Below are positions 1,728 through 58,826 of a stretch of 64,000 nucleotides of DNA, piece after piece (position 1 is the first letter of the stretch; each line of letters opens with the position of its first letter). The stretch is from the NCBI GenBank assembly GCA_033439265.1, contig JAVTVX010000013.1, positions 2,568,501 through 2,632,500 on the forward strand, in the 5' to 3' direction. The notes beneath the pieces were generated by a model. It saw only the letters and a list, made by a program, of their open reading frames with translations, was not told the DNA's origin and did no database searches. The position numbers and the translations under genes were made by a program. This stretch comes from Dillenia suffruticosa (taxonomy: Eukaryota; Streptophyta; Magnoliopsida; Dilleniales; Dilleniaceae).

Positions 1728-4700
1728 TCACAAAGAAGATGATGAGGCATTCATTGGCAAACTGCTGGGGACAAACCTTACTCGAGTACAGTTTTTCAAC
1801 TTGACAAGAGCTTCTTGTGACTTCCCAAGCATTAGATCAACATAAACTGAGGTTAAAATGGCTTCTGAGCTGTTGGGTAGTATTGACAATGCTTGCATTG
1901 CGAAAGTCAGGGCCTGCTGCAGATCACCTTGTACCGCTGACATGACGGCAAAGTTTGTATAAAGAATCCCACGTGCTTCTTCGGGCGTTACAAACACAAG
2001 ACCTTGTGATTCATCGGTAGTAGTCTTGCAAGCTGCTGATCCAGCATTCATTTCATCACTTTCTATGACTTTCACAGCTCGCCATTGCTCACAGTCATCT
2101 TCATTGTACGGCAATTCTACATTGTTTCCACCAGACAAATATGTGGACAAATGCTCAGCAGCTTCCTTTGGCCGGCTTAGTAGGCACAGTGCCTCAGCTG
2201 CGTATACATGGGCTATAAAGATGTAAATTCTAGAACAACCAGGAAGTCTCAAAAGTGAATTTGCAGTGACGAGGGCCTTCAAAGGATTTCCCAATTCCAA
2301 CTCCACATATGCAAGGTTGGCAAGTACTGCTTGCTTGATCATCTGGTTCTCTCGTCTGCACATGTCTTCATAGTCAGAAATGGAGCTCTGCAGAGTAGAG
2401 ATCGAACTTACTCCTGCTTTCGGTTCCTTTGTGTCTCCATTTCCATTTACCTGACCTGGGGCTATAATCACTTTTGCCTTGGAATCACTGCCTGATAGAG
2501 TCTTGTGGTTCGAATTCTTAAAAGCTGCTCCTTCAACTGATTCATTTTCTCCGGATGATGAATTAGGTGAACCACACCCTGAGAGTTCCAACACGGAAGA
2601 GTTCAGTAAATGGAGGGCATCAAGGAGGCACTGTCGAGCAAAGGGCAATGAGAGAATCAGCTGTCTTCTGTTATCTGAGAACCAATCATCCTTCTCAAGA
2701 GAATTCACATTTGAACTTCTTGAAACTCCATCAATTACAAGATGTCTCCATTTTCCCTTGCCAGCAACATGAACTTTAATTTCTGATGCATCAGGTAGAG
2801 CCCCATAGGATTTCAAAAGTCCCTTCTCTTTGGCCATAAGGCAGCATTCTGCAATTCGAAGCCATAACAGAGGCTGGTCGTAGAAAATCAAACTTGCTTT
2901 CGTAAAACAGTTGGCAGCAAGTACAGGTTTTCCACATGCCAAGTACTGAACACCAGAGTTATAAATAATTTGGAGAGACTTATCTTGTGAGAAAGATGCA
3001 AGTTTCAGGGGCTTATCCTTCTGCAGAGATGAACTATTACTCAGTGCCCTAGAAAAATAGAGAGATGAGGTATGGTATTTCCCAAGTTGATAGTGAATGC
3101 AACCAAGATTGTTGAAAAATATGCTTGTCATCCCAGTTTCTGTTCTATTACCAGAAGCCATCAAAAGCTTGATAGCTTTTCGGTGATTCCCTCGAGCATA
3201 TTCCAGCTGAGACTTCAAGAGAAGAGCCATTGAAGAATCTCTTCCTCGTGCACCATTCATCATAGCCATCTTAACTTCACGCTTTGCTGTCTTTAAGTTT
3301 CTAGTAAGAAGTAGAAGTCGGACTTTGTAAAGATGAAGCTTGAACTTCAAATCACTCATAGAGATTGACCGATCTGTAGGGGTTCTCAAAATATCATGTG
3401 GGGGACCAGCTGTCCTCGACAAGTTCTGGCCACCAATATCCAATGTTGAGAACAAGGTTTCATGGTCTGTTTCCTCTGACAGCGTTCTTGAGAGAGCATT
3501 TTCCGAAACATTTGCACTACCTGTAGAATCAGAATTAGAAGCATCTATGGTCACTCGAACAGGAGGCTTTGCCACAGGGTTTGAAGATTGCTGATTAGAT
3601 GTGTTCCCATTATCATTTTGATTGGTCATATTACCAAGACCAAAAGCCTTTTCTAGATAGTTAATTACATCCTGAAAAAGATAAATATAATCAAATTTAA
3701 GCAATAGCATCAAGCAGTAGAAACAACTGCAGAAGGAATTCATGAGAATTTGAACATGTAATAATCCACACTACAATTTGGGGTTAAGACATGCCCAAAA
3801 CACAGAAGATGATGCTCCACAACTTTCCAAATCTCAGAAATTTATAAAACCAACCAGATAAGAATGCAAGAGAATTGGACAATACAACAAATAATGCATG
3901 TTGTTAACTAAGATCTAGCAATTTTTACAGTCCCAGGATCTAGTTCTCATTGAGACTGCAGAATAGCAGCCTCAATAATGTTTTTGTTGGAAAGAGAAGA
4001 AGAGTAGATAATGAAAATAAGGATTTTTCCAAAGAAATACTCAAGGTTATACTAGAAAGAAAGAGATCTCAAAAGATAATCATGAATAACACCACATAAA
4101 ATTTTCACTCTTTGTAAAGTGAATCTCCACTCTTATTATAGTACATAACATGATTACCTATATATAGAACCAATACATTATTTTAGACTTTACTAGCATG
4201 CTAAGAGACACCTTGAAAAACCTCACATGACTCTTTAGAAATCATTCCATGGCTCTTTGAAATTCACTCACATGACTATTTATTTTCTCTGTATCATAAA
4301 TTCTAAATTATTCCAACATTCACCCCCTTAATTTAGAATTTTTTTTAAAATTGTAAATCACAAATGCATTTTCGTTGTTTCTAGTCTCTTCGGATTCCTT
4401 TTTCTTCTGTCTTCATCTTCAATTCTTGCAATTCTTCCATGACTTTATTAAAATTTTCTTTTAATTTTTCATAAGTTTCTTTCCATCCTTCCAAATTATT
4501 TTTGACTTCATATGATTCTCTTTCATTCACATCCTTAATGACAACATTGTAAACCCATTTTAAATACCTTATTGTCTGTAGAGCCGCTTCATTTTCAGCA
4601 TCTTTCTTTATGTATGTCTTGAATCCATATTATTTATGCCTACCATATTTGTTTTCAAATTTCACCATTACAATAAAATTGGGTAGATGATCTGGACCAA

Positions 4701-7700
4701 ATTTTGCACAAACATACTCTGTGACACGCAAATTTAACTTTTCCGATAACTCCTTGAGTATTGTTTTAAATTGCACAGTTACAACGACAGTAACCTCTTC
4801 ATTCTCAATTCTTCAAACTTTTTCTTTGTGGAGTCCTTTTCATGATTTACACATTTTTAACAGGTTCTCTTTTCTTTAAACCTAGAGATTTCTCAAACTT
4901 TTCCTTTGTGGAGTCCTTCTCATGACTCATACATTCTCAACAAGTTCTCTTTTCTTCAAGCTTGGAGATTTCTCAAAATTGTTTGTCGTTCTTTAAAAGT
5001 CCGAAGATGCAAACATATGCAAATAACTTTTCTTTTTTGATCCTAGGAGACACCAACCTAGACACAACCTCAACCTTGCTTGATACCACTTTATTGGAAA
5101 AAGAAGAAGAGCTAATAATGAAAATAAGGATTTTTCCAAACTAATACTCAAGACTATACTAGGAAAAGGGAGATCTCAAAAGATAATCATGAATAACATC
5201 ACATAAAACTCCACTTTTATTAGAGTGGCTCTCCACTCTTACTAGAGTATATAACATAACCACCTATATATAGAACCAATACTTTATTCTAGATTTTATT
5301 AGCATGCTGAGAGATACCTTGAAAAAACTCACGTCTCTTTGGAAATCAGTGTATGACTCTTTGAAATTCACTCACATGACTCTTTATTTTCTCCATATCA
5401 TAAATTCTAAATTATTCCAACAGTTTCATGATGCATCACGATCACTAGTTGCACAAAGACCACATGATTCGAAAGGAGGGGAGAGGCAAGCGTGGAAGTT
5501 AATCGCTTATGATTGTTTCCAACCCAACAAGATTGCGAAAATATTGACTCTAAATGACATTCATCAGTTTCAACTTTCAATGTCACTGTTTATGAACCAC
5601 AGAAAAATTGCACCTCAGAAATTGCAGTTTTCAATGAAAGCCATGTTGTTTTACCTCAAATGGTCAACAATCTGAACAGCAATTCTGTCCATATAATGGA
5701 TTTTAAGCATGGCATTGACAAAAAGATTCTTTGGATTTAGGCCAAAGAACTGATGACCGGGCACAGTGGGAAACTAAAAATAAAGTCCCTCCAACCAGAG
5801 AATGGGAACATAGCAAGGTTCACAATCAAGAATCATAGTTTTACAAACTAATTTTCATCCAACACCAGGGTGCTTTGTAACATCTTTAGTCTAGAAGAAA
5901 CCTCAGAAAATATGCCACATAATGTAATTAAGATATGACTGAAGGGTACAAAGAGGGTCATGTAAACCAGAATCCAAGATATGTCATCAATCAAGAAAAG
6001 CCAATTTGTTTCTTTCAATTTCCTGCATTAGGTCATCACTGCAACTGCTATTAAGTTTGTCAACATGGATGAAAGTTATCAGTTTCCAGCAGTGTCATAT
6101 TTTGTCACCAATAGCTAAACATACTATTTTATTGAGTCCTCTCTATGAGAAAAATCAAGCTTCAACTTTTAGTAGATTCATAGAATAACAGTATGCCAAC
6201 TTATGCTCTTTAACCTCTTAAGGAGCCCAAAAGACATTTTTTATTTACTCTGAAGAGCCAAAGCAACAAAAGAGCTACAATCACTGTGTCATAATAAAAC
6301 CAGAGACATTAATCATAAACAAAACTATTTCACTTTTGAGTAGAGGTGCTGGGAGGAGGCCCATCACTCCGAAAGATGAAAATTAAAGGTTTATTTCTGT
6401 TAGAAGAAAAGAATACTCTTCAGCATCATGTTTATGTGCAGAGGATATCCCAAATTTTGGCGTCAGTGTCAATCTAAAGCAAGAAAACAATTGACCTCAC
6501 ATAACCACCACCCCCCCCCCCCCGGCCGCAAAAAGAAAAACAACAATAAAATATCTTTAAAATGTCATTCTCAAAGAGCAGAAACCTGGAAAAAAAAATA
6601 CTACAACCAATCGAAACCATGTGTTTACTCTAGAAAAGCTCGTAAAGCTAGATTCAACTCATAATTTACCAATAAGGACAGAAGGAAATGTACTAAGTGG
6701 CAAAATCTAAAATGCCAAATGTCATGCTATTAAAATTCTTAAGGAGACCCTCTTCAGCTACTCAAATTGCTATTATTAGGGGAGCAACATGTCTGCTCGT
6801 TAATCAAGCACCACAAATTTTACATGGGTTACTCTATTCATTGGGACTTTGAACATAAAAACAAACAAGGCATAAAGGTACGACAACATATAGCAAAAGG
6901 CTATAATGTCAACTCATGTGGATGCATATCCATCCATTCTAGAGTCTGCATCATCAGTTAGCAAAATCATGTTAACTTTGAATGAATCAGAACTTAAAAC
7001 TAAACTTAGAATAAAAACTTACTGCAGACTTTGATGCATCATGCAAGGCCAGAGCAACATCCAGTAATAAAAGGCATATATCAAGGGCAGTGTTCTGCAA
7101 ATAATGCACAAAAAGAAGAAATTAATTCAGACAAACTGGCAATTGGGATTCAAGATTTACAATAACAGCTCACCTCATCAATAGGTTCAATATTTTGATA
7201 CAAAGGTTCCAGAACAGACAATGCTTTCACATAATCATGAAGATGAAACCAGATTATTGCCTGAAAGAGAAAATTTAGATAGGACAGTCAACTCCCTCGA
7301 AGGAAGGAAAGGTCAAAACTTGTGAATAATGAACAAGGATGCTTCTGAAAAAGCAATTCTAATAAAATAATGATTGGTCCTTAAGTTGGTATACCATGTT
7401 TAGCATTGTGACAGAAGTGTCAAATTCGTCAGTGTATACAAGACTAGAAAAGTTTTGACTGATATTAGTGCCTATAGATCCCGAAGTAATTTTATTCCCA
7501 GCATTGGCAGAAGCCTCCAAGTTCTCCCCAGATGCATGAGCCAGTTCTTTGCTTCGCTTCTGTAGGAAACATAAACATATGAAACAACACATGAGAATCA
7601 ATACGACCAGCGAAGTCAGAATTTATCTAATAAAAAAAACAATTTAATTGCCCTTTCTGGGACCACAGCACAGAAAGGCTCTATTTAATAACATAAGTTG

Positions 7701-27547: not shown

Positions 27548-27852
27548 CGTTGTTTAATTTGTTCTTTCATGCTTTAGAATTCGAAGAAATTGTTCGAGAT
27601 TTGGTCTCTCATTTCACGCTTTTAAGGTACATTTTTCTATCCCAATACCATTTTGTTGCAGGTAATCTTAAATTGGGAAACTTTTTGACGATATGATCGT
27701 TCATAAAATTTTGTGGATTGATCATACTTGGATGTATCGAAAGTCGGAAAAATGTTATTCTCAATTTTATTCTTAATTTGTGTTAGTTTTGGATTTGTTT
27801 GAGCAGAGATCTGAAATTGAAAAACTAGAGAGACAAAAGAGGAGAGAGAGAG

Positions 27853-30800
27853 ATGACGATCACACCAACAATCCGAATAGCGGACCGGAAGCTGGTCGTA
27901 AAGGACCGGACAATTCTAACCGGGGTACCCGACAATGTCACCACAACAACCGGGTCGACCACCCGTCCGATCGAGGGGATGTTCATTGGAGCAGTTTTCG
28001 ACGAACAGAAAAGCCAACATGTGGTGCCGCTTGGTTCGCTTAAGGATGTCCGCTTCATGGCTTGTTTCCGGTTCAAGCTTTGGTGGATGGCCCAAAAAAT
28101 GGGAGATAAAGGCAGTGAAATCCCACTAGAGACCCAATTTTTACTCTTGGAAACTAAAGACGGGTCCCACATCGAATCGGAGGGTGGAAATGAGTGCCAT
28201 CAGATGATCTACACCGTTTTCCTCCCTCTGATTGAAGGACCATTTAGGACTTGTCTACAGGGCAACGCACAGGATCAGCTTGAGCTTTGCTTTGACAGTG
28301 GTGATTCGGAGACCAAAACGGCGTCATTTGATCACTCGCTTTACATTTGCTCCGGATCCGACCCGTTTAACACTATCAGCGAAGCAATCACAGCCGTTAA
28401 ATTGCATCTCAAGACTTTCAAGCAGAGGCATGAGAAAAAATTGCCTCCTATCGTGGACTATTTCGGTTGGTGCACTTGGGATGCTTTTTACCAAGAAGTG
28501 ACCCAAGAAGGGGTCGAGGCTGGCCTAGAGAGCCTGAAAGCCATTGGATGTCCTCCCAAATTCGTGATCATTGATGACGGATGGCAGTCCGTGGGTGGCG
28601 ATCCAAATGAACAGAAACCGTTGATGAGGCTGACCGGGATAAAAGAAAACTCGAAATTCCAAAAGAAAGACGATCCAACGGTTGGGATCAAAAACATCGC
28701 GAACATAGCAAAAAATAAGCACGGGTTGAAATACGTGTACGTGTGGCACGCGATCACTGGATACTGGGGTGGGGTCAGACCAGGAGTCAAAGAAATGGAG
28801 GAATACGATTCGTCGATGAAGTATCCGATAGTGTCAAAATCGGTGGTGGAGAATGAGCCCACATGGAAAGCCGATGCAATAGCAGTGCAGGGATTGGGAC
28901 TCATAAACCCAAAAAATGTTTACAAGTTTTATAATGAGTTGCATGGTTATCTGGCCAGCGCGGGTATTGATGGGGTCAAAGTGGACGTGCAGTGTATTTT
29001 GGAGACTCTGGGTGCGGGTTTGGGTGGTCGGGTCGAATTGACCCGACAGTATCATCACGCTCTTGATGCTTCCGTGGCTAGGAATTTTCCTGATAATGGC
29101 ATTATTGCTTGCATGAGTCACAATACCGATGCCCTCTACTGGTATGTTTCTCTCTCCCCTCTCTATTCTTCTCAAAATTTTCAAAATTTACCGTTTCACT
29201 TGCATTGCAAAATCAAATGTCACCCTCCCTCTCTCTCTCGCTAAACATGGTTTTTTTTTTTTTTTTTTTTTCTGTATTTTTGGTTGTAAACAGTGCAAAA
29301 CAGACGGCTCTAGTGAGAGCATCAGATGATTTCTACCCACGAGACCCAGTGTCACACACAATACACATAGCAGCAGTGGCATACAACAGCGTATTCTTGG
29401 GAGACTTCATGCAACCTGATTGGGATATGTTCCACTCTCTCCACCCGGCTGCTGAGTACCATGCTTCTGCCAGAGCCATTAGTGGTGGCCCTGTTTATGT
29501 CAGGTACTTAAATCTTATTTATCATCTACTTATGTCAATTAATCTTAATTTTATGGTAAATATATTTAACTTTATTTGTCTATTTTGGTTTGGATAGTGA
29601 TGCACCCGGGAAGCACAACGCTGAGCTTTTGAAGAAGTTGGTCTTGCCTGATGGGTCCATTCTACGAGCCCGTTTACCAGGCCGGCCCACTAAGGACTGC
29701 TTGTTTTCCGACCCGGCCCGTGATGGTGTTAGGTGAGTTCACCCCTTTTCTTATTCCTGCACTTTGTTAAAATACATCCAGAAAATAAGGGTCTCTTAAT
29801 AGGAAAGATTGCACTTATGATGTAACACTGTGTTTAGATAGACTCTCGCTATATCTAAGTTGAGACCCAAACTTGGATTCTCTTCAAAGTGGATATATCC
29901 TGATAAATTGTGTCTTCAATGAGTATAGTTCAAAGGCCAAGATTTAAGTCCCTAAATTTCTATGTCCAAATGTAGTGTCATAACCATTAAAGATTCAAAG
30001 TGAATTGAGGCAATTATGGTGGAGAGCTCCCCCTAAACTGGCCCGACAACGTTTGAACCGGATTAATTGAAGTATAATTCCGGATACCATTTGGTTATAC
30101 CAAAAAAAATATTTTGAGGAGAGAGTGATGCAGGTTGTCCCTAATAATCCTTTTAACATAGTCAAAAAATAAAAAAATAAAAAAATAAAAAAAAAATTGA
30201 GTAACTAATTTTAAGTTACAAACCTTTTGTACATTTTTTTGGCAATAACTTTCTGCTAGTTTTGGAGGTAAAATCACTAGATACTAATATTTTATTTTCC
30301 TTTCCTTTTTTCTTTTCAGTTTGTTGAAAATATGGAACATGAACAAGTATACTGGAGTACTAGGAGTATACAACTGCCAAGGAGCAGCATGGAACAGCAT
30401 AGAGCGCAAGAACACATTCCACCCAACACAGTCTGGTGCAATCACCGGCACCATCCGTGGCCGTGATGTCCACCTCATTGCTGATGCCGCCACTGACACT
30501 ACCACCTGGATTGGTGACTGCGCCATCTACTCTCACCGCTCTGCCACCCTCCTTACTCTTCCTTACAATGCTGCACTGCCAATCTCTCTCAAGGTCCTTG
30601 AACATGAAGTCTTCACCATCACTCCTATTAGAGTTTTGGCCAATGGGCTCAACTTTGCTCCATTAGGCTTGCTTGACATGTTCAATGCTGGTGGAGCTAT
30701 TGAAGATTTGAAGTATGAGGAGAAGAGTGAAAATGGTGGTGCTTTGGTGAGGATGGAAGTGAAGGGTTGTGGGAGATTTGGGGTGTATTCATCGGTGAAG

Positions 30801-30932
30801 CCAAGGAAGTGTGTGGTGGATTTGGCGGATGTTGAATTTGAGTATGATTTCGGGACTGGTATGGTTGTTACAAGTTTGGAGGGTATGCCTGAGGAGAGTA
30901 AGATAGCTCATGTTGTAGAGGTTGAGTTATGA
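27853..30932 (+). CDS. RFS2: Raffinose synthase / alkaline alpha-galactosidase-like (SIP/RFS) protein, GH36, four exons
   Basis: Family members transfer or release galactose on galactinol, raffinose and related sugars, usually in the cytosol. Exons are 27853-29141, 29294-29503, 29598-29732 and 30320-30932, all GT-AG, encoding 748 residues; the family is about 750-780. The start is fixed by an in-frame TAG 27 bases upstream (27,826-27,828). Features: N-terminal beta domain ([13 protein letters not shown], residues 73-85), GWCTWDAF (205-212), [10 protein letters not shown] (237-246), and KVD at 376-378 with D378 as the expected nucleophile. RASDD (438-442) should hold the acid/base Asp. [14 protein letters not shown] lies in the last exon. 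The N-terminus (MTIT, then [15 protein letters not shown]) is most like the SIP2/RFS2 branch. Whether it makes raffinose or hydrolyses galactosides cannot be told from sequence alone. All domains are intact. Confidence 0.92.
29928..30110 (+). repeat. SINE-like fragment in intron 3 of the RFS-like gene
   Basis: The right half, GAACCGGATTAATTGAAG, then CCGGATACC, ending in an A-run near 30,103-30,109, matches the tail of the other SINE-like copies in this window (GATTAATCG...GGATATCG...A-tail). Confidence 0.45.
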
Positions 30933-37932: not shown

Positions 37933-40900
37933 CTAGATCGGATATTCCACCTTGACAAGTGCATTTGAAACCTCATTTGTTGAAACATCCTGGAGCCAAT
38001 CCTTTGCGCATGTTAGGGCTTCCACTGTCTCTGGCCGTAAGGAACACCTGTAGTTATCCATCTCTTTGCTAAATGTGTCAAAAACCGACTCAGGAGGGAC
38101 AGTGGAAAACGGAACAGTCAGGATGTCTCGAGCCATCTTGGACAATGTTGGATACTTGAGCCTGTTTAGTTTCCACCAGCCTAGAACATCAAAATCTGGC
38201 ACCCGTGGCAGCACCGACTCTTCCAAATACTGGTCCAGCTCTGATTTCTTCTGTTGGCTGCTAGTCTCCAAGATAAAGACATCAAAGTCGGTCAGTCCAA
38301 AATCTGAAACTCCATTACTGAATGGAACATTTCCTCCTTCGGGTTCCTCGGGCTTGACTTGTGTTGCTGCTGCATTTGCTTCTTCCACATAAGTCGGTGT
38401 AAGAGGCAAAGGAAGCGCAATATATTCATGGAAGAGCTCATGAATACCCTCATCCACGATCTTGATGTGTGTGGGAGCTTCTTCACCATAAATCTTTGAA
38501 AAACTAAACTCGACAAGCTTCATCTTGAACCTGGGATCCACAACAACTGCAATTGCTAGAATTGCACTGCAATGTTTCCAGTATATATCAAACACTTCAT
38601 GCATCGGTTTGGTGAGGGTACTGACAAGGGGATCCTCACTTGTTGCTGAACGTTGCAACTCCAGCTGAATCTTCCAAACCTCGTGAAAAAATGTGTTTGC
38701 AGTTGGATAAGCAGAGGAGGTAAGGATGTGAGTTGCATCATAGATTACTTTCAAATATTTGCAAAGCATCTCAACCTGCTTCCAATCTTCCATAGATGGT
38801 GCTTTCTTGTAATCGGGATCTGAAGTGTCTAAGCAAGAAAACACTTCCTTCAACTCAGAAGCAGCCACCAGCATTTCATAAGTCGTGTTCCACTGGCTTT
38901 GGTCATCAAGAGACAGGGTCTTCATACTTGGAACTTGGAGTTGTTGCTTGAGTTCAAGGAACTTTTCTTCATGAGATTCTGATGTTTTCACATACTTAAC
39001 ACTGTCCCGTACTTTCTTCACAGTTTCATAGCAAACCCTTAGTGCCTCTTGTGCGACACTGCTTATAGTGCGAGCAAGGCAATGTCCTACCAAAAGTTGT
39101 CCACCAAGCATAAGAGGGTTTTTGACCGATAATAAAGCCCTGAGGATTTCGAGGCCATTTTCAGGCAAGGATTGACTATAGGTGAGAGTGAACAACTTAC
39201 TTTCCAAGCCCCAATCAGATAAGCAAACAGCAACAGCATGGCTAAAGGCATTGTGTGAATCAGGAAATGGTTCCATCACAACATTGAGAATCCGTCGATG
39301 CAACTTCCAGTCATTATCAATAAAGTGTCCGGTCACAAAGACATAACCAATAGTATGACTTGAGGTCCACAAGTCAAGTGTAAGGCAAACCCGTCCCGGG
39401 ACTCCCTCAAGAATTTTCTGAATACTCTGCTTTTCCCTCAGGTACATAGCCACACAATCACCTTGGACAGTGTTGAAGCTCACCATGTCAAATCGAGGCT
39501 GGAGATTTTGGACAAATGAAACAAATGCAGGGTGTTCAACAATGTGAAGAGGGTAGTCATGCATGATGATCATCCTCGCAATCTCATGCCTACATCGGTC
39601 CTGATCGAATAAGGGGTTAGGAGTCCAGGGTCTATATCGCCGTTTTGGTGTGTCCGTGGCATTACCTGCCCCACCCACCTTTGAAGGTGCACTAAATGGG
39701 GTAAGCTGATTCTTGTCTTGGTTACGAAGGAGCATGGGGCAGGTTCCCTTGGCAATGTGTCGCTTGAGGTGGCTGGTCCCCGCAACTTTGGAACCTGTAC
39801 TGTATGCAAATGATTGCTTGCATTGCTTACAGGATGCTCTTCTACATCCAGGACCCACAGTTTCAATCGTGAAATGCTCCCAGACTATGGACTTCTTTTT
39901 TCTACGCTTGCTAGGTGCCTGAGATTCAGCAAGTGCTAGCTCGTTGTTGTTGTTCTCAGTTTGGACGGGGACCATGGTGGTCTCCATCTTGTTTGAAGTT
40001 GAGAAATCCTGTTTTATACCCTCAAAGAACTTAGGAAAATAACCTCAACTCACATTAATACATTAAAAAGACTCTTACGGCATGGACCCCAGACAAATCA
40101 AGATATTATGAATATTGAGAAAAGAAAAAGGGGACATATCACACAGAACACATCCAAAATTACACAAGAAGCAACTTCTGAGTGCAAAAAAATATTTTAT
40201 TCCAAACAAAAAGAGAATTACGATTGAACTAATTAGACCAGTGAGGGCAAGCTTTCTATCTCTATCCCTAATTTCCATGTGTAATGCAGACAATGAAGCC
40301 TGAGGGTTCTGACAAATTTACAGTTAGGTGCAGAAAACAATCAATGAAAGATGAAAACTTGAAATTATAGAATAAGTCAATGTACAGGAGAAAAGACAAC
40401 CTTTACTCCCACCACCTTTTGCATTCAATGACATAATTGATAATTCCGTAGTATAATGAACACTTTACACTTTATGACTTTTTGAAAAAACCTAAGTATT
40501 TATATAAATATTTTCTATTCTCTTTGATAAAAACAACAAGCAGAAACGGAATAAGGTAAAATATCATGTCTACAGAGAGGGGGACACCAAAACAAGGCTT
40601 ACACCGTTTAAGGTTACACATGATGGAAAATTACATTGAAGACATCGACATCAAAGCTGAATGCTTTAAACCAATGCAGAAATACCCCTTTCAAGTAAGG
40701 CAAAGCATCAGTTTTCCAAATTCATGCTTCTTAAATCAACTTAAATAAATCCCTTCTCCCGCACGAGGAAAAATTCAGTGGTACCAAAAAATAAGAACTA
40801 CCCTTGGCAGCAACACAAACCTGAATCTTCCCAAACCATGCAAAATTTTACTCAAAAGATTCAACACAAAACACAACCCACGAAGGAATATACAAAAATC

Positions 40901-50998: not shown

Positions 50999-51148
50999 GT
51001 GACCCTTTTCATATTCTTCCACAGCTTTCTTGAACTGCATCGGTTCAGTCTTGTTGACACATGAGCGAGTATGTATATATGTATATATTGTTTGCTCTGA
51101 AAATTGTTGCGGTTCAATAAAGCTGTGGGAAGATATGGTGAGGGTCAA
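50999..51148 (+). ncRNA. MIR396A: MIR396 precursor (miR396a type)
   Basis: The mature strand at 51,017-51,037 starts TTCCACAGCTTTCTTGAA and ends CTG, the miR396a form. The opposite arm at 51,112-51,132 (GTTCAATAAAGCTGTGGGAA, then G) is the usual miR396 3p strand. The arms pair nearly fully, with the conserved outer stem GACCC / GGGTC (51,001-51,005 and 51,142-51,146) and a loop of about 70 nt. miR396 guides cleavage of GRF transcription-factor mRNAs and so limits cell proliferation in leaves and roots. TATA box and CT-rich leader lie just upstream. Confidence 0.95.
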
Positions 51149-56999: not shown

Positions 57000-57036
<37 letters not shown>

Positions 57037-57166
57037 ATGGGGGTGGGGTGGTAAGGTTGGAATTCAGATGCTGTCAAAAACTGAGGCTTTGAGGCTTTGT
57101 TCAGAGAATTTTGGTATGTGGTAAAAGTTGAAGTTATAAGGAGTGGTGAAAGTGGAGGGGAGGGGG

Positions 57167-57197
<31 letters not shown>

Positions 57198-57486
57198 ATG
57201 GGGGTGGTGTGGTAAGGTTGGAATTCAGATGCTGTCAAAAACTGAGGCTTTGAGGCTTTGTTCAGAGAATTTTGGTATGTGGTAAAAGTTGAAGTTATAA
57301 GGAGTGGTGAAAGTGGAGGGGAGGGGGACACAGAGAGAGAGAGAGAGAGAGAGAGAATGGGGGTGGGGTGGTAAGGTTGGAATTCAGATGCTGTCAAAAA
57401 CTGAGGCTTTGAGGCTTTGTTCAGAGAATTTTGGTATGTGGTAAAAGTTGAAGTTATAAGGAGTGGTGAAAGTGGAGGGGAGGGGG

Positions 57487-57528
<42 letters not shown>

Positions 57529-57662
57529 CGAGCTTGGGGGTGGGGTGGTAAGTTTGGAATTCAGATGCCGTCAAAAACTGAGGCTTTGTTCAGAGAAATT
57601 TGGTATGTGGTAAAAGTTGAAGTTATAACGAGGAAAGTGGAAGGGGAGGGGGAGAGAGAGAG
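57000..57662. repeat. Minisatellite with about 160-bp units, nearly four copies
   Basis: Units start at about 57,036, 57,197, 57,356 and 57,531. Each has GGGGGTGG, GGAATTCAGATGC, GTCAAAAACTGAGGC, TTGGTATGTGGTAAAAGTTG, GGGGAGGGGGACAC and a GA tract of variable length. The last copy is shortened and more diverged. The spacing of about 159-161 bp keeps a spurious frame open on the minus strand. Confidence 0.9.
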
Positions 57663-58698
57663 ATCAGATGTTGACAAAGGCTAACCTTTTTCACTGAAAT
57701 TTATGATGATAAGAAAATTCCCAAGAGACAAACAAGATGAACTATCATTATTGATGACAATTTTTTTTGAAAGGTTGGGAATCTTCTGCCAACCGATCTC
57801 TCTCAATTTTCAGCAACTGGGACTGAAGATCAGAGTAAAAACTTTATTAACAAAAAGAAAAATTGAAATTTATTAGAAAGTAATTTTTTTCTTTTTTTTA
57901 AAAAATAAAGAAGAATTATGTATCTTCTGCATTCTTCATGCATGGCACAAACGTGTTGCAGTTAAAATGAATAGAACTAAAAAGATCCAAAGCGAATTGT
58001 CAATTACAATCTTTGTCTTGTATCAAAAGTAAATAATTTTCAGAATAAAAGTATGAAAACTCAAGAGCAAAATGAAATTTCCCAACAAGAATTTTCAAGA
58101 ATTCGTATGAATTAACTTTAAATCAAGCTATGAAATTCCAAATCACAATGTAAGGTAAGTGTGATCTAATCACTTAACCAGAATTCACATACCCCATAGA
58201 TCTTAACTAAATCCTATAAAGTTCATCAACCAATTATAATTCTCCACAAAGAATTCTCACAAATTTGAATTATAGCTCAGAAGAAGTTAAAATTATCAAG
58301 AACACAATTTCCTAACCAGAATTACAAGAGTTCAGGTGAATTACCTGTAATTTTAAACTATGAGAGAATGTGCTCTCATCCAATTAGAATTCAGATCGCC
58401 ATCCCAAAAAAACCCTCATCTAAATTCATCGACGGATTATAATTCTCCCAAAAAAAAAAATCCAAGGAAAAGCGAAATATAGCTCCAAAAAAAAAGTATA
58501 AACTGGGAATTAAAAAAATGGTTGCTTTTTTGAATTTAAAGGGGAATATTACCCCAATTTACCTATATGCATGCAAGTAAAAAGCTGAAGAAACCCACTT
58601 TTGATCGATCACAGGCTTTGATGAGTGGTGCACAAAGAGAGATCTTGGCTGCGAAGTTGACCAAAAATTTTGAAGCCTTGTTATCATCAAGTCCACAA

Positions 58699-58826
58699 TT
58701 AGGCATGTTCTCCCACAGCTTTCTTGAGCTTCTCCGTTATTATTATTAATATCAAAAATGAAAATATTATTTTTGACAATTAAACAGAAGAAGAAGTTCA
58801 AGAAAGCTGTGGAAAAGCATGACAGG
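58699..58826 (-). ncRNA. MIR396B: MIR396 precursor (miR396b type)
   Basis: On the minus strand the mature sequence occupies 58,814-58,794; it begins TTCCACAGCTTTCTTGAA and ends CTT, the miR396b form. The 3p strand at 58,729-58,709 begins GCTCAAGAAAGCTGTGGGA. The arms pair well around an AT-rich loop of about 64 nt. The gene is transcribed toward MIR396A, 7.7 kb away, so the two are convergent. Targets should be the same GRF mRNAs. Confidence 0.95.

Follow-up and report, generated by a model that had tools for sequence, protein, structure and literature searches.

The 64,000-nucleotide stretch of Dillenia suffruticosa DNA analyzed here (the window) carries, on its minus strand at 3985-5422, a long terminal repeat (LTR) retrotransposon of 1.44 kb (1,438 bp) whose only long reading frame resembles a double-stranded-RNA-binding domain (dsRBD). 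The element is located inside an intron of a CNOT10-like gene, in sense orientation (splice sites read by eye); the last large exon of this host gene, on the same strand as the element, matches CNOT10 with an E value of 7e-47. The two LTRs (3985-4318 and about 5090/5094-5422) share 86% identity, and together with a primer-binding site (PBS), a polypurine tract (PPT) and a target-site duplication (TSD) conserved at 4/5 positions they identify the insertion as an LTR retrotransposon. The features of the element are as follows.

3980..3984, no strand: left copy of the TSD, GTTTT; the right copy, GTTTC, is at 5423-5427, with 4/5 positions identical.
3985..4318, minus strand: 3' LTR (type A), a direct repeat with 5090-5422, 86% identical; TG...CA ends assigned by eye.
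4319..4330 (approximate), minus strand: PPT, AAGGGGGTG, adjoining the 3' LTR; read by eye.
4381..4812, minus strand: broken dsRBD-plus-tail frame of 143 codons, with TAA at 4630-4632 and no ATG at its start.
4402..4494, minus strand: charged tail, residues 107-137; modeled, at low confidence, as a single long helix (mean predicted local distance difference test score, pLDDT, 56.6).
4561..4767, minus strand: residues 16-84, matching the dsRNA-binding domain of Pfam (dsrm) at 29.8 bits against a cut-off of 23 when the stop is read as X.
4813..5076, minus strand: leader, from the PBS to the frame, with an 80-bp tandem duplication inside.
5077..5090 (boundaries approximate), minus strand: imperfect PBS of the tRNA-Met type, TGGTATCAAGC; read by eye.
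5094..5422, minus strand: 5' LTR (type A), a direct repeat with the 3' LTR.

Other type A copies carry TGGTATCAGAG at the PBS position. The tandem duplication in the leader of the window element occupies about 4808-4967, immediately upstream of the dsRBD frame, and the leader itself is present in all compared copies but that at locus L061.

The first-pass annotation, made from the letters of the sequence, had proposed that a short non-autonomous LTR element contains a dsRBD-like frame whose domain is interrupted by a lone TAA. The LTRs, PBS and PPT are in agreement with this proposal, and the minus-strand frame 4812-4381 contains a single internal stop, the TAA at 4630-4632. With X at this stop, the 143-residue translation matched Pfam PF00035 (dsrm; gathering cut-off 23 bits) at 29.8 bits and an E value of 8.9e-7 over profile positions 2-66 of 66, so that the profile search suggested at the outset returned a full-length dsRBD match. 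The closest relatives by sequence in the PDB were the plant proteins DRB4 (E 1e-4), DRB2 (0.001) and DRB3 (0.0014), which resemble the element protein in having a dsRBD with the same motif order; the element protein, in contrast, consists of a single domain followed by a charged tail, and its identity to the 12 host-genome dsRBDs compared below is only 20-31%. The window copy itself is dead: the start codon found in its relatives is missing, and the TAA interrupts the domain.

Searches of the 596-Mb genome (37 contigs) revealed that the window element has many relatives. We obtained at least 40 matches with the coding DNA as query (40 scored of 122 candidates), at least 150 with the protein (150 scored of 197) and at least 41 with the 5' LTR (40 of 157 candidates scored). 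Eighty loci were read, containing 79 copies, 77 of them with at least 60 aligned codons. Eleven of these 77 are stop-free in the aligned part, as are 9 of the 47 distinct frames with a hit over 100 residues, which shows that other genomic copies exist and that some have an open frame. Seven of the nine stop-free frames open with the same ATG, one codon past an upstream stop, and this ATG is the one absent from the window copy. LTR pairs flank many copies, and some copies are found in tandem arrays. Copies of the dsRBD about 0.8-1.2 kb apart were observed at C29:14919630-14922149, C18:5097163-5098559, C8:18441337-18444847 and C16:5367358-5369670; LTR or unit repeats are visible in the arrays on C29, C18 and C8, while the C16 array is known from match positions alone. 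These arrays resemble the tandemly arrayed terminal-repeat retrotransposons in miniature (TRIMs) described in PMC4717578.

To follow the history of the frame, stops were compared with LTR divergence in the 40 copies flanked by two LTRs, 23 of type A and 17 of type B. The more diverged the LTRs, the more stops the copies contained (Spearman 0.55, p 2.5e-4); the intercept was -0.42 +/- 0.84, and three of the four copies with an LTR divergence under 0.10 were stop-free. Since stops track LTR divergence from a near-zero intercept, the copies probably inserted with an open frame, and decay set in only after that. In the four columns with the most recurrent stops (14, 61, 86 and 109, within residues 1-130), 14, 16, 13 and 9 changes were reconstructed for 14, 23, 15 and 11 stops, respectively, without a shuffled-label control; as the change counts are near the stop counts, most recurrent stops appear to be independent in origin. 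The youngest divergence bin held 0.25 stops against 0.71 expected. The remaining bins speak against a simple version of this history, as stops exceeded the simple neutral expectation in 4 of 5 bins (observed/expected 1.55/1.05, 2.59/1.45, 2.98/1.79 and 2.68/2.17), and for this reason a few stops were perhaps inherited or lie at hypermutable sites. The LTR divergence of the window copy is 0.148, corresponding to an age of about 6 million years if we assume about 1.3e-8 changes per site per year, a rate that may not fit this plant.

From these observations we consider it likely that the element in the window is a decayed member of an LTR family that is old, multi-copy, non-autonomous and of the Ty1/copia type, and whose protein of about 135 residues is a divergent plant DRB-like dsRBD with a charged helical tail. 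This degree of confidence applies to what the element is and to its history, and not to the mechanism discussed below. The assignment to Ty1/copia is based on the tRNA-Met PBS and on copia gag, integrase and reverse-transcriptase pieces in related copies. The window element works like a TRIM, yet it is not classed as one; TRIMs are under 1,000 bp and without coding capacity according to PMC4717578, whereas the window element has 1,438 bp and belongs to a family with a family-wide frame that is open in part of the copies.

Whether the frame has been under selection received a divided answer. The evidence for constraint comes from variants that are inherited. Between 37 type A and 36 type B copies (a third LTR type, with 4 copies, being excluded), the fixed differences comprise 15 replacement, 11 silent and 0 stop changes, compared to 206, 30 and 28, respectively, among singletons (p 5e-4); in the two shifted frames the same contrast gave p 0.11 and 0.43. 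Transversions present in at least three copies numbered 123 replacement and 27 silent in the frame, against 264 and 19 in the two shifted frames taken together (p 4.8e-4). Rarer transversions were alike in the frame and the shifted frames (p 1.0), and rare and shared transversions differed within the frame (p 0.021). Net divergence between types A and B at codon positions 1-3 was 0.061, 0.019 and 0.075, respectively. Taken together, the inherited variants, with their frame-specific silent excess, suggest modest constraint.

Several other results run counter to selection on the frame. Pooled pairwise dN/dS by the NG86 method was 0.50 in the frame, a value that is undiagnostic because the shifted frames gave 0.40 and 1.02. 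Parsimony counts disclosed no codon-position bias on inner branches, where amino-acid change per nucleotide change was in fact higher (0.649 vs 0.590, p 0.003). With so star-like a tree, recurrent mutation overwhelms these counts, and only stop gains were rarer on inner branches (22/863) than on terminal branches (96/2114; p 0.013). Comparison of the coding part with the leader revealed no clear contrast in A-B conservation. Moreover, 11/11 fixed silent differences are transitions, and the fixed transversions comprise 7 replacement and 0 silent changes.

The first-pass annotation had also proposed that the element captured a piece of a host dsRBD gene, which was not borne out for the genes compared. 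None of 12 dsRBDs, out of 52 PF00035 matches outside the window, qualifies as the donor; their identity to three element proteins is 20-31%, although they average 44% among themselves. A recent host capture of the dsRBD is thus unsupported, and with identities of at most 31% any capture would have to be old or to derive from a gene outside the 12. In contrast to the dsRBD, other host sequence has entered the family. Positions 213-620 of locus L054, after the PBS, are 86% identical to the exon C12:1541282-1541671, part of a 1340-aa open frame, and 77% identical to C27:1590483; a third match place is C10:1281321. Judging by the 86% identity, the element family has taken up host exons. A stretch similar to the captured exon of L054 is present at L064:3230-3670 (minus strand), both loci being type B copies with the captured piece right after the PBS, and a remnant was detected at E 1e-6 or better in 9/80 loci. 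The charged upstream stretch of L054 and L064 had no match in Pfam or the PDB; it may resemble the repeats of plant auxilin-like J-proteins.

Plant transposons are controlled by small RNAs, and dsRBD proteins help to make these small RNAs; many plant viruses encode a dsRNA-binding counter-measure of their own. Against this background, the copies may owe their movement to related gag-pol elements acting in trans, and the dsRBD protein could benefit its source elements through binding to RNA that is structured or double-stranded. Our first choice, offered tentatively, is that the protein competes with host DRB or Dicer proteins for element dsRNA and so blunts silencing. RNA chaperoning or packaging in cis is our second choice and rather a speculative one, and the third, which we also doubt, is that the protein has no function. 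The broader proposition, that a dsRBD protein is kept by selection as the sole gene of non-autonomous copia-type elements, where it would shield them from silencing or aid their parasitism on gag-pol, and would thus represent a parasite-encoded DRB mimic, is possible but doubtful. If true, a family with a dsRBD as its only gene would offer a direct test of a dsRNA-binding counter-measure borne by an LTR element.

The alternative that survives best is that the dsRBD is an inert captured passenger, tolerated because trans-mobilized elements accept any insert, with a frame that was open when captured and, in the source elements, has simply not had long to decay. The tree is compatible with such a history; inner branches contribute a length of 1.6 out of a total of 13.2, and on so star-like a tree few inner-branch stops are expected even without selection. 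The dN/dS and parsimony tests that failed to show constraint point the same way, and uptake of host exons is demonstrated by L054. A passenger drifting to 20-31% identity without selection, however, should have lost its frame, unless its donor is outside the 12 genes compared, and the modal signature residues are retained in the 77 copies at frequencies of 0.88 (H42), 0.87 (K69), 0.97 (K70) and 0.99 (F46), but at 0.47 for P40. In dsRBDs, the His and Lys positions are contacts to RNA. The inherited variants, moreover, lean silent in this frame only. On balance, we regard an inert passenger as somewhat unlikely.

A second alternative places the dsRBD as a 3' extra open reading frame (ORF) in an autonomous gag-pol-dsRBD copia element, from which the short elements would derive by internal deletion. 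The module is associated with three LTR types. LTR matches at least 200 bp long numbered 85 for type A and 64 for type B in the loci read, with no overlap between the two sets, yet the two types share an internal region with a net divergence of a few per cent in most bins; the third type, partly B-like, accompanies gag pieces in L062, L071 and L072. The window copy has no gag-pol, but copia-type gag, Pol_BBD, gag_pre-integrs and RVT_2 pieces occur in L061, L062, L071 and L072, which are possibly composites. In agreement with an autonomous parent, reverse-transcriptase (RVT_2) and RNase H pieces are directly upstream of the dsRBD in L061, and gag is upstream in L062, L071 and L072, accompanied in L071 by a zinc knuckle, Pol_BBD and gag_pre-integrs.

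These associations are nevertheless rare. By comparison of tables by eye, a dsRBD match adjoins RNase H in only 2 of the 150 RNase H matches scored and is downstream of gag on the same strand in 5 of the 150 gag matches scored. L019, one of the two RNase H neighbors, and L017, with gag-side pieces, are likely composites because an LTR remnant, PBS and leader separate the pol or gag part from the dsRBD, and the L061 dsRBD begins mid-domain, at residue 25. Most gag- or pol-flanked cases would then be composites. No complete gag-pol-dsRBD copy was present among the loci read, and the gag at C11:5942480, with RNase H 3.3 kb downstream, has no dsRBD among the matches listed. An autonomous parent as the main carrier was therefore rejected as improbable, on the grounds of rare pol or gag adjacency and of the composites; given that only two scored RNase H matches adjoin it, the dsRBD appears, among the matches listed, to be mainly cargo of elements without complete gag-pol.

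The assignment of the domain has its own weak points. The 60 residues before the stop alone score 18.3 bits, under the Pfam cut-off; dsrm is found at E 0.01 or better in only 3/9 proteins of the relatives' alignment (A1), and the profile built from that alignment finds one PDB chain, DRB2, at E 0.0049. The single-sequence structure model is poor, and Foldseek returned no hit at E 0.001 or better. In the same model, helix, three strands and helix, followed by a long helix, appear in dsRBD fold order, and dsRBD structures fill 7 of the first 15 Foldseek rows, although none is significant. That an AT-rich frame resembles a dsRBD merely by chance is extremely improbable despite the weak structure search, the sub-threshold open part and the few relatives reaching E 0.01, and was rejected on the strength of the match across the whole dsrm profile with domain order kept, the leading place of DRBs in an independent PDB sequence search, and the modeled order of helices and strands.

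We can then place the copia-type family carrying a DRB-like dsRBD among known systems. The titles and abstract openings returned by literature searches contained no dsRBD described in a copia-type element or in a TRIM or large retrotransposon derivative (LARD), and the novelty claimed in the first-pass annotation stands to that extent; it is qualified by extra ORFs resembling the double-stranded-RNA-binding motif (DRBM) in the Ty3/gypsy Tekay elements of maize and sorghum (PMC11728184). These are the closest published parallel that we found. Like the window family, Tekay is a plant LTR element with a DRBM-like extra ORF, and this ORF has been suggested to modulate RNA silencing. Tekay is, however, a gypsy element with the ORF 5', upstream of gag-pol, and a likeness by predicted structure only, whereas the window family is copia-type without complete gag-pol and has a sequence-profile match.

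Gene-carrying TRIMs, with captured exon pieces reported in 30 elements from 7/289 subfamilies (PMC4717578), share with the window family a short LTR pair, a 5-bp TSD, a tRNA-Met PBS, a length of 1.2-1.4 kb, captured exons and tandem arrays. Orchid Ty3/gypsy elements that carry an AlkB-type RNA demethylase offer another likeness, in that a host-like domain acting on RNA has become fixed in a family of plant LTR elements; the orchid element is a 25-kb gypsy element, unlike the short copia-type one here (PMC9289625). The domain survey in the same paper records 15 unusual domains, every one of them in Gypsy-type elements, and no Copia-type domain gain, with which a dsRBD in a copia-type family contrasts. 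VANC of Vandal Mutator-like elements (MULEs), mentioned in PMC13317346 and PMC11728184, is a transposon-encoded anti-silencing protein, an action that we only propose for the window family; it is a different protein, from a DNA transposon. Viral contigs, queried with the single protein and with alignment A1, contained no related loci.

Elsewhere in the window, a raffinose synthase/seed imbibition protein gene is located at 27829-30932 (plus strand). A 703-aa open frame at 37933-40044 (minus strand) contains a hAT-like RNase-H fold and hAT dimerisation domains and is possibly a domesticated transposase gene. Two MIR396 precursors, at 51007-51141 (plus strand) and 58700-58824 (minus strand), score above the Rfam gathering score and are 7.7 kb apart. 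About four copies of an AG-dinucleotide-rich 160-bp tandem repeat occupy 57010-57663.

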